From contig JAMOVR010000220.1 in assembly GCA_027061945.1 (NCBI GenBank), positions 1 to 33,206 of the forward strand: a stretch of DNA of 33,206 bases, in the 5' to 3' direction. A model generated the notes under the pieces. It was not told the origin of the DNA, made no database searches, and saw only the letters and a program-made list of their open reading frames with translations. The DNA comes from Candidatus Heimdallarchaeota archaeon (GTDB taxonomy: Archaea; Asgardarchaeota; Heimdallarchaeia; Heimdallarchaeales; JAJRWK01). Positions within the stretch are counted from its first letter, which is position 1, and every line of letters begins with the position of its first letter. Below are positions 1,413 to 29,592 of this stretch, piece after piece. A program made the position numbers and the translations under genes.

Positions 1413-1688
1413 GTGTTAATGGGGTCTTATTCCAGCAATTTTACATACAGCCCAGAGGAAGAAGAAATGTCTATTGAATATATCGCGAAGATTAGCAGTG
1501 CAATATCAAGTGGGGTGTATATAAAGACAGAGGAAGTTCATAGAGCCGTATTATATGCTACAAAGCTTTTTATTGCTCACGAAAAAGGAAAAATAAAATT
1601 ATCACAACCTGAATATGATACTTTATTGAATTTTATTTATACTGTTAATTCAAGCAGTTTTGGAATTAATTTATTATCTTCTAGTTAA
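1413..1688 (+). CDS. hypothetical protein (91 aa)
   Basis: ORF with plausible acidic/helical composition; no recognised family; stop codon lies 3 bp before repeat copy A. Confidence 0.4.
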   Translation: MLMGSYSSNFTYSPEEEEMSIEYIAKISSAISSGVYIKTEEVHRAVLYATKLFIAHEKGKIKLSQPEYDTLLNFIYTVNSSSFGINLLSSS

Positions 1689-1690
1689 AA

Positions 1691-1866
1691 TTTAACTTTC
1701 TCGGCGGGAAATTCCCTTCCGAAAGGGAGGGGATGAAATCCGAAAACATCATATGTTTTTTTGTATATTTTTTTCTTGCAGGGCTGGGACGGCCCGTAGC
1801 GTCTGTGGAGAGAGTCTCCTCTGTGAAGCAGGAAGCCCCTCGCAAAAGAAAGGGGTAGTTCACATT
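1691..1866 (+). mobile_element. non-autonomous IS200/IS605-like element (MITE) carrying LE hairpin, tnpB 3' remnant and omegaRNA-like right end, copy A
   Basis: LE-like TTTAACTTTCTCGGCGGGAAATTCCC..GGGAGGGGATGAAA; right end CTGTGGA..GTGAAGCAGGAAGCCCCTCGC..GGGGTAGTTCAC; about 95% identical to the reverse complement of 12502-12679. Confidence 0.8.
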
Positions 1867-2041
1867 AAGTTAGTTTAATAATAACTCCCTTTTTAAAGTA
1901 TTTTTATAAATCTTCAATGCTTAGATTGTGTTTTTTTGCGTTAGAGCTAAATTTCGGTTTATAATGTTCATATGGCTAGAATAAAATAAATAGTTGTACC
2001 GATTAAGAGAATTTGTAGTAAAAATAACTTGGTGCGAGAGT

Positions 2042-2416
2042 ATGGAGAAAAAACAAAAAATATCTTTTAGTTGCCCAGACGATCTGAGAAAAAAAATTGA
2101 TGCGATAGCAAGGAGAGAAGGCGTTCCTCGTTCCAGGTTGATCGTTGAACTTTTAAAGTTAGGGCTTTCTGTTTATGATCCCCAAGCTATGCCATATAGG
2201 GATGTAGGGACGGAGAAAATAATTTTAATGTTTCAACAGCGACTTGAAGAGATTGAACGTTGGAGGGACGAATTAGAAAACTGGAAAAAAAGAATCATGG
2301 AAGAAATAAAAAACCATGAAGGCGTAATTATGGAATTATTGAATGAAGAAGTGATTCAACCACCTCCTGAAAAGAAGAAGAAAAAATATAATCGAATACC
2401 CAAACCTAAAGATTAA
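2042..2416 (+). CDS. ribbon-helix-helix (CopG/Arc-like) protein with C-terminal coiled coil
   Basis: QKISFSCPDDLRKKIDAIARREGVPRSRLIVELLKLGL matches the RHH beta-helix-helix pattern; ORF track starts at 1994 but ATG 2042 fits the domain better. Confidence 0.7.
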   Translation: MEKKQKISFSCPDDLRKKIDAIARREGVPRSRLIVELLKLGLSVYDPQAMPYRDVGTEKIILMFQQRLEEIERWRDELENWKKRIMEEIKNHEGVIMELLNEEVIQPPPEKKKKKYNRIPKPKD

Positions 2417-2448: not shown

Positions 2449-2566
2449 TTTGACTTTATTGGTGTTAAATTGGTGTTAAGTCTCTTTTTTTAAGGTGGGT
2501 TGGATGTAAACTATACTTTGCTTTTGCAATGGATTTAAATCCCTCAAGGGTGGGGCATGTTTACAT
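2449..2566 (+). mobile_element. degenerate IS200/IS605-like LE+RE remnant (about 115 bp)
   Basis: TTTGACTTTATTGGTG..TTAAGTCTCTTTTTTTAAGGTGGGTTGGATG resembles the LE at 4234; AATCCCTCAAGGGTGGGGCATGTTTACATT resembles the RE. Confidence 0.4.
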
Positions 2567-2692
2567 TATTTATGTTATGCATCCGGGTCATGAAAGGATT
2601 CCATTCTGGAAATCCTAAACCCTGTGAAAGCACGATCGGAGAAGTGACTTGTGTAAGTGAAGATTATTTTCCTTTATTTGTGTTAATGACAA

Positions 2693-12419: not shown

Positions 12420-12501
12420 TTTTCTTATATAATTTCTTATACAATTAAGAAATAAGAATTTAATAAACCTCTTTTTTATTTATAATTAATATCATAATCT
12501 A

Positions 12502-12679
12502 AATGTGAACTACCCCCTGCTTTTGCTAGGGACTTCCTGTTTCACAGAGGAGACTCTCTCCACAGGCGCTACGGGCCGTCCCAGCCCTGCAAGAAAAAAA
12601 TATACAAAAAAACATAATGTTTTCGGCTTTCATCCCCTCCCTTCCGAAAGGGAGAGGATTTCCCGCCGAGAAAGTTAAA
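12502..12679 (-). mobile_element. non-autonomous IS200/IS605-like element (MITE) with omegaRNA-like right end, copy B
   Basis: Reverse complement is about 95% identical to 1691-1866, with one 4-bp indel in the LE hairpin and a handful of substitutions. Confidence 0.8.
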
Positions 12680-27760: not shown

Positions 27761-27997
27761 AAATTTCTTTTTATTTTTTTATACTATTTTTGAATCCTAA
27801 CTGCAAGAAATCCCCTTTTAAAAGTGGGAATTAAGATTCTTTTTAATGTTATTAGGTTGAATTGGAATAAAAAGTTAGGAGATAGATCAAATAAATAAAA
27901 AGAAAAATAGGACTAGAACACCCTATTCTGTAATATTTATAAAGAGAAAAACAATAAAAAACAATTTCCTCTCGTTCTTTATAATAAAATGGTTCTG

Positions 27998-28029
27998 AGC
28001 GAGTCTTCTTGATGAGACAAGAAGTCGCT
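27998..28029. terminator. hairpin in convergent intergenic region (terminator or decayed IS605 right end)
   Basis: AGCGA-gt-CTTCTTG-ATGAGA-CAAGAAG-TCGCT followed by TTTTAAAAAATAATA; lies between convergent CDSs. Confidence 0.4.
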
Positions 28030-28050
28030 TTTAAAAAATAATAGGCCCGT

Positions 28051-29592
28051 TTACCCGTTTTCTTCTCTTTCTATTTCTTCTAATCTTCCTCTAGTAATAG
28101 AAACTATGTCCGGATCTATTGAGATTATTCCTCTCATTGCCCCATCGGGTACATTGTAAAGTATTAAAGCTAATCCTTTGTTATTTTCACTTCCAACTGG
28201 AACTAATAAGTTGAAAAAGAATAATTCTATTCCTATCTCTTTTGGGATAAATACTGTATGTATTCCTTCTTGCATAGCCTTCTTTTTTATTTCAGAATCA
28301 GAAGTAAATAAATGCACAAAAATACCTGAAGTAGTTAGGTTTCTTATTCTTGGGAGATGAATTCTTGGATTAGTAAGTGGTTCAATACCAATGTATAGTT
28401 CTAACGGGATTTCATTTGTAAATTGTTCCGCAATCCATTCAATAGTACTCATCATGTAACGAGTTCCTGCTTCATCAAGACTTATATTTGCTGTTTCAAA
28501 TTCTATTCTGTTTAATTTGATTTTCTTGTTTTCCTTGAGTGCATTTAATATTTTTATTGGTAATTCTCTCAAAGTAAAAATTATTTTTTCTGTTTCTGTA
28601 ACTAACTCGTAAGTAAGTGGTTTGCCAATTGTTTCTTTCGTCTCTAAGGTCGTAAGTTGAAACTTTTTATTTATCCTTATTTTCTTCCGAGTTTTCGCAG
28701 GTTGAATTGTAGGTGCTTTTCCTTTTTCAAGACTAACTAATTTTATTGGTTCACTAAGTATTCCTTTCATTCCCCAATATTTTCTTGCCTCTTTAACCAT
28801 TTCTTTTATTACTTTTTCTCCCGGATTAAAAATTAGGGTCTCTACATTTTCAAAAAAAGTATACAATTCGGAGATAAAGGGCATTGTTTCTATTTTGTTG
28901 TTCATTTTTCCTTGGGCAATTAGAACCCACCATTCCTCTTCTTCGTCTAAAATAATTTTTTTTAAAATAAAAATACTGTTCTTTTCTAATCGGATATCAA
29001 TCTTACAGTCCTCTTCTAAAGAGTTATAAATATTCTCTACAGCATTTCTCCAAACTTCTTGGTTTAATTTGGGAGGATTTGAAACATCCTTGTAAAGTAC
29101 ATATATCGGCCATGATTCATTAGTTATTAAAATAATAGATACTAAGGACTTAATATTCTTCATTGCAGAATCAGAGATACTATCTAATTCCATTAATCCC
29201 TGGGGCGTTGATAAAACAGATTCTCCTAATGTAAGATCTATTAGTCTTTCAATATGTCTTAATGATTTTAATGAGCCTAATTTTCTTTTTATTATTTTCT
29301 TATTTTTAATTACTATTCTTTTTACTTTGTTTAGGATTTTTTTAGCTCCTTGTGGAGAAATTGTTTTTCTAGCTCTAAGTGCTATTAAAAAGTCATCAAA
29401 TTCATCATAAACAATATAGCTATCTGACAGTATTTCCATCTGAATTTCTTCGCCTGTTGCTTCTCTACCTAGTATTGCTTGAATTGAGATTCTCCCAGCT
29501 TTTAGGACCTCATCAACTAACGATGGTTTTCCGTATATAAACACAGGTACTGATTGGTATATAACAAAGAATTCTAGTATGTCAGAGTGCAT
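28051..29592 (-). CDS. hypothetical 513-aa protein with putative tandem longin/roadblock-like N-terminal modules
   Basis: FFVIYQSVPVFIYGKPSLVDEV...YIVYDEFDDFLIALRARK and SIILITNESWPIYVLYKD...KNSIFILKKIILDEEEEWWVLIAQGK resemble repeated sensory/longin alpha-beta modules; C-terminal alpha/beta region of unknown family. Confidence 0.7.
   Translation of the reverse strand: MHSDILEFFVIYQSVPVFIYGKPSLVDEVLKAGRISIQAILGREATGEEIQMEILSDSYIVYDEFDDFLIALRARKTISPQGAKKILNKVKRIVIKNKKIIKRKLGSLKSLRHIERLIDLTLGESVLSTPQGLMELDSISDSAMKNIKSLVSIILITNESWPIYVLYKDVSNPPKLNQEVWRNAVENIYNSLEEDCKIDIRLEKNSIFILKKIILDEEEEWWVLIAQGKMNNKIETMPFISELYTFFENVETLIFNPGEKVIKEMVKEARKYWGMKGILSEPIKLVSLEKGKAPTIQPAKTRKKIRINKKFQLTTLETKETIGKPLTYELVTETEKIIFTLRELPIKILNALKENKKIKLNRIEFETANISLDEAGTRYMMSTIEWIAEQFTNEIPLELYIGIEPLTNPRIHLPRIRNLTTSGIFVHLFTSDSEIKKKAMQEGIHTVFIPKEIGIELFFFNLLVPVGSENNKGLALILYNVPDGAMRGIISIDPDIVSITRGRLEEIEREENG

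Follow-up and report, generated by a model that had tools for sequence, protein, structure and literature searches.

The window analysed here, a stretch of 33,206 nucleotides, contains two copies (A and B) of a short repeat. The repeat very probably represents a PATE-type MITE family, derived from an IS200/IS605 element by deletion of its core and moved by TnpA in trans, which could in principle supply guides to TnpB. There is good support for calling it an IS605 MITE that bears an omegaRNA: the copies share an LE and an RE with hairpins and are bounded by constant TTTAA and TTCAC motifs, and the right half is, judged by its sequence, a genuine TnpB omegaRNA scaffold. PATEs as such have been described before; what is new here is an omegaRNA that is complete yet naturally trimmed.

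Two copies within a dispersed family

Both copies lie where a preliminary description of this DNA had placed them (Table 1), and the unit contains neither tnpA nor tnpB, as had been stated there. The close likeness of the two copies was also borne out, at slightly less than the 95% first given: BLASTN identity is 91.7% over 180 columns, and 93.0% of ungapped columns agree, i.e. about 92-93%. Copy A was correctly located, with an end (1866) set 3 nt too far. The alignment of 47 genomic copies puts the boundary at the TTCAC that ends at 1863, so the 'ATT' common to both copies beyond TTCAC (1863 and 12505) is flank.

Table 1. Features of the two MITE copies in the window
Feature	Position	Strand	Basis
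TTTAA, putative target and presumed TAM, adjoining left end of copy A	1691..1695	+	Most of the 47 copies have a 5' boundary of the TTTAA type
Copy A, PATE-type MITE, 168 bp	1696..1863	+	Alignment of 47 genomic copies
Left-end hairpin, copy A (outer UCGG/CCGA, inner 10-bp stem)	1701..1743	+	Fold, -21.1 kcal/mol
T-rich spacer, copy A, with TATA-like CATATG at 1750-1755	1744..1777	+	Sequence
Short-form TnpB omegaRNA scaffold, copy A	1778..1863	+	80.9 bits, E 1.3e-16, model built without MITE copies
Stem 1, copy A	1781-1785/1791-1795	+	Base assignment from sequence
Stem 2, copy A	1802-1806/1828-1832	+	Base assignment from sequence
Short stem 3, copy A	1807-1811/1815-1819	+	Base assignment from sequence
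Stem 4, copy A	1835-1840/1851-1856	+	Base assignment from sequence
Pseudoknot strands, copy A	1787-1789 and 1859-1861	+	Base assignment from sequence
3' flank of copy A, putative guide position	1864..1883	+	Follows TTCAC; by analogy with ISDra2 (PMC8612924)
TTTAA, putative target and presumed TAM, copy B	12675..12679	-	Sequence
Copy B, MITE, 170 bp	12505..12674	-	Alignment of genomic copies
Short-form TnpB omegaRNA scaffold, copy B	12505..12590	-	77.1 bits, E 8.9e-16
3' flank of copy B, ATTTAGATTATGATATTAATTATA, putative guide position	12481..12504	-	Same in MITE at C111

The window belongs to a genome assembly of 2.95 Mb in 377 contigs that is 87% complete. Comparison of the unit with the rest of this genome, the check that the preliminary description had proposed, revealed a dispersed family at a level well beyond chance: 41 matches reach E <= 0.001, and 40 of these cover almost the entire unit (best value apart from self, 3.4e-81). 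A 41-nt core pattern was found at 46 sites, 21 forward and 25 reverse, against 0 for a reversed control. In all, 47 distinct copies were aligned, with a mean pairwise identity of 93%; the true number is probably higher, since some matches to the LE fall where contigs end. The left boundary is TTTAAC or TTTAAT in most of these copies, and the right boundary is AGTTCAC in 43 of the 47. The family thus has what is expected of MITEs, i.e. many dispersed copies with constant ends, no transposase gene in the unit, subterminal LE and RE hairpins without terminal inverted repeats, and a position 3' of a short target.

Insertion junctions were read from the ends of occupied copies, there being no empty site to compare; same-genus DNA has diverged (72%) too far for such a comparison, and the spacer does not align. 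By analogy with ISDra2/IS608, TTTAA would be the target site. The full-length unit is absent from both congeners searched (G001 and G002), which suggests that the family expanded recently or in this species alone.

In a genome with at least 47 copies in 2.9 Mb, finding two within 33 kb is unremarkable, and the 'inverted pair' singled out in the preliminary description consists simply of two members of the dispersed family. It is extremely improbable that copies A and B form a composite transposon or paired device: they are inverted and about 10.6 kb apart, as such a structure would be, but the family comprises at least 47 single dispersed copies and the interval between these two holds ordinary genes. 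We therefore rejected the composite-transposon reading.

Several minor observations concern the surroundings of the copies. A gene for a small ribbon-helix-helix (CopG-like) protein lies downstream of copy A, at 1994-2416 (+) of the window. Two further stretches of the window match the model weakly, 27800-28054 (+) at 21.5 bits, with an LE-like remnant at about 27803-27837, and 2506-2609 (-) at 18.2 bits; both resemble ancient, degraded remains of this type of element. Elsewhere in the genome, the copies at C31:2635-2810 (L006) and C309:11239-11416 (L072) occupy an identical site, in antisense orientation, within two decayed tnpB paralogues.

The omegaRNA scaffold and its flanks

The claim that the RE half is a TnpB omegaRNA scaffold is upheld by a covariance model and by the architecture of stems and pseudoknot. 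The model was built from long forms alone, an alignment of 16 right ends of larger IS605-type elements, all but three from the same genome as the window. Their consensus has stems 1, 2, 3a, 3b and 4; with the pseudoknot included, 89% of cells are standard pairs, and two-sided changes affect 13 pairs, compared with 5.2 for the shuffles (0/500). This model recognizes both window copies (Table 1). They retain the two strands of the pseudoknot along with stems 1, 2 and 4; their stem 3 is short, and they have no stem 3b. Folded alone, the MITE consensus RNA forms stem 1, stem 2 around the short stem 3, and stem 4. Its stability is nothing unusual (z about -1 against shuffles), so the case for an omegaRNA rests on homology.

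The same layout is known from ISDra2, whose omegaRNA consists of stems 1, 2, 3a, 3b and 4, with a near-end UUC that forms a pseudoknot with the stem-1 loop (PMC10097598). Stems 1 to 4, the pseudoknot and a GUUCAC end, with stem 3b absent, mark the MITE RNA as a TnpB omegaRNA, and the guide would likewise come from the 3' flank (PMC8612924, PMC10097598). Location at the 3' end of a tnpB gene, also typical of omegaRNAs, is seen in the related larger elements and not in the MITE. Unlike ISDra2, the MITE has a different sequence, a naturally short form, no adjoining TnpB and TTTAA instead of TTGAT. Stem 3b is dispensable for ISDra2 TnpB, and its removal (Trim2) improves editing (PMC10097598); the short form, which lacks stem 3b as the engineered Trim2 RNA does, may therefore well be functional. 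With stem 3b lost naturally, the MITE RNA is an evolved counterpart to an engineered compact omegaRNA.

No Rfam family matched at gathering score in the whole window, or at a permissive threshold in window positions 1500-2100. The exact short stem-3 pattern gave nothing in the GTDB and viral collections, which may omit records of the genome itself or ones very near to it. Haloarchaeal sotRNAs (Rfam RF02656/RF02657, PMC12558985) are also archaeal TnpB-associated omegaRNAs; in contrast to the MITE RNAs they overlap a tnpB gene, and their models have no match in the window.

Upstream of the scaffold, the CATATG of copy A lies about 30 nt before stem 1, and TTTATATA is found at the corresponding place in related LEs. 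This TATA-like box in the LE spacer could start the omegaRNA and is a candidate promoter.

Each 3' flank directly follows TTCAC and so stands in guide position, as first suggested. The flanks differ between MITE copies, with the exception of one pair: the 24-nt 3' flank of copy B is identical at C111:6298-6321 (+) of the same genome (G000, L053) and is found nowhere else in it. These two copies are not close sisters; their 5' flanks are unrelated, and the common 24-mer is of guide length. A flank-to-target search over the loci compared, looking for an empty site with TAM plus guide, returned none that was convincing.

Larger elements with the same ends

The genome of the window contains the tnpA and tnpB elements with matching ends that the preliminary description had called for. 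The LE and RE of the MITE, the left-end hairpin included, are common to LE-tnpB-RE elements, LE-tnpA fragment-RE elements and an intermediate. C192 is an LE-tnpB-RE element of 1,369 bp; in C263 the tnpB is internally deleted and the omegaRNA has the short form of the MITE; and C92, C98, C199 and C241 have the order LE-tnpA fragment-omegaRNA-RE. All three kinds of deletion derivative (the MITE, C263 and the tnpA-fragment type) retain the scaffold all the way from stem 1 through TTCAC. The genome holds more than 50 long-form and at least 46 short-form scaffolds; elsewhere we counted five in G024, a same-order genome whose TnpB copies include intact ones, and a single one in G001.

Within the 87%-complete assembly, every tnpA with MITE ends is broken, and none of about 30 TnpB zinc-ribbon loci encodes an intact TnpB of the MITE group. 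The longest and best frame, that of C192, has a 33-aa in-frame deletion, including the conserved NQRKDFLHK stretch, relative to the 406-aa TnpB of G024. The latter is 100% identical to a TnpB of Candidatus Heimdallarchaeota archaeon 8H_bin2 and matches ISDra2 TnpB over nearly its whole length (E 5e-43). From this identity we infer that the window derives from an Asgard archaeon related closely to Heimdallarchaeia. The earlier suggestion of a working TnpB acting in trans thus finds no intact cognate gene in the assembly. Since all cognate tnpA and tnpB found are broken, the MITE copies are probably idle remnants, or else they rely on a gene within the ~13% that the assembly lacks.

An intact 121-aa Y1 transposase gene (2403-2768, -) and a split TnpB lie on C71 (L069), just downstream of a MITE copy. 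We judged this TnpA/TnpB to belong to another IS group and rejected it as cognate; the TnpB side does not match the MITE ends.

The genome is, in short, a graveyard of this IS605-type family, much as Haloquadratum is for PATEs, whose occurrence there alongside broken transposases is established (PMC3119063). The PATEs of Haloquadratum walsbyi are likewise archaeal and transposase-free, have near-terminal palindromes and ends in common with IS605-type elements, arose by core deletion, occur in multiple copies of >90% identity, and share their genome with tnpA and tnpB genes that are nearly all pseudogenes. The MITE differs in that its right end is a complete TnpB omegaRNA scaffold without stem 3b. 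OmegaRNA was not yet known when the PATE paper appeared, and the scaffold question is untouched there (PMC3119063).

Functional readings and comparable systems

We propose that an IS200/IS605 element lost tnpA and almost the whole of tnpB, so that the LE, a short T-rich spacer and the RE remained as a non-autonomous element. A Y1 TnpA supplied in trans would recognize the LE and RE hairpins and excise the element as single-stranded DNA. As in ISDra2/IS608 (PMC8612924), it would cut at TTTAA and TTCAC, and the ends and targets suggest that insertion would follow 3' of another TTTAA. Because the RE piece is the whole omegaRNA scaffold to within 2-3 nt, each copy could yield an omegaRNA guided by its own 3' flank. 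A cognate TnpB, while active, could load such MITE RNAs and cleave the TTTAA-flank site that had become empty, and the MITE would then be restored from a sister copy, which would presumably select for retention of the scaffold. The family suggests that IS605 deletion derivatives can keep the full TnpB guide-RNA scaffold, and a MITE that does so could exploit TnpB retention in trans.

Two functional readings fall within this explanation and are not rivals to the anatomy. That the elements are plain PATEs or MITEs, which kept the RE only because TnpA needs a right end and in which the short omegaRNA is a passenger that never worked, has in our view somewhat less than an even chance. Transposition requires the RE hairpins anyway, the omega part is under no significant constraint, and an intact TnpB is missing from the assembly. 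However, the start of the kept piece nearly coincides with stem 1 and lies well upstream of the endmost RE hairpin; an RNA identical in form occurs within the tnpB element C263; and shared variants among the MITE copies are fewest in the omega 5' part. The other reading, which we hold tentatively and consider rather doubtful, is that the MITEs are solo omegaRNAs that guide TnpB made elsewhere and are protected from loss, a selfish retention in trans. It accords with the complete scaffold architecture, with the resemblance of the short form to an engineered active form, and with the excess of scaffolds (about 100) over tnpB remnants (about 30) in the genome; the lack of an intact cognate TnpB in the assembly counts against it. 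We regard as unlikely the far-reaching picture of ~50 naturally trimmed, dispersed TnpB guide RNAs that parasitize or cooperate with TnpB encoded elsewhere, each recording its insertion site and protecting the MITE in trans.

Selection was assessed from private substitutions in the 40 copies that the search with the whole unit had returned. Per thousand cells, the omega 5' part has 5.1 of these and the RE 6.7, compared with 8.6 for the spacer and 9.2 for the LE; the differences between regions are not significant (p = 0.10 and 0.17). With seven further copies (n = 47), LE versus omega gives p = 0.018, a value biased towards omega since the added copies were found by an omega-part pattern. In dead tnpB elements (18 loci, a few of which overlap), conservation is 84.9% for omega and 84.0% for tnpB (p = 0.5). 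As the omega part is neither significantly less mutated than the LE or spacer nor better conserved than tnpB, retention of the scaffold may be passive; selection during amplification may also be compatible with the data, in that several derivative types end their deletions just short of stem 1.

The absence of significant excess conservation leaves the earlier idea of domesticated guide RNAs unsupported. Recruitment by the host as guide or regulatory RNAs would suit the intergenic placement of the copies, which is slightly more often near gene 3' ends, but appears very unlikely given that purifying selection is not significant, that each flank is different and that the two congeners have no full-length unit.

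Trans-encoded solo omegaRNAs were reportedly described for IscB, in Ktedonobacter, by Altae-Tran et al. in 2021. Those loci, too, have no adjacent nuclease gene; the MITE RNAs differ from them in being TnpB-type and in lying between transposon ends.

Genomes of the same phylum contain multi-copy elements of ~396 nt whose LE is related and whose right end is of the TnpB type (L133 1409-1804, L132 from 1384 onward, and many in G074 and G081). They include ~180 nt of extra sequence that is not found in TnpB elements and has no Rfam match. We considered a HEARO (IscB-type) RNA for the solo elements of G074 and G081 and rejected it: Rfam gave no support, and their 3' ends match full TnpB elements. 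Full-length TnpB elements whose ends match the ~396-nt elements occur in the genomes that carry the latter, and one ~396-nt copy, in L133, is adjoined by an IscB-like gene (RRXRR and HNH).
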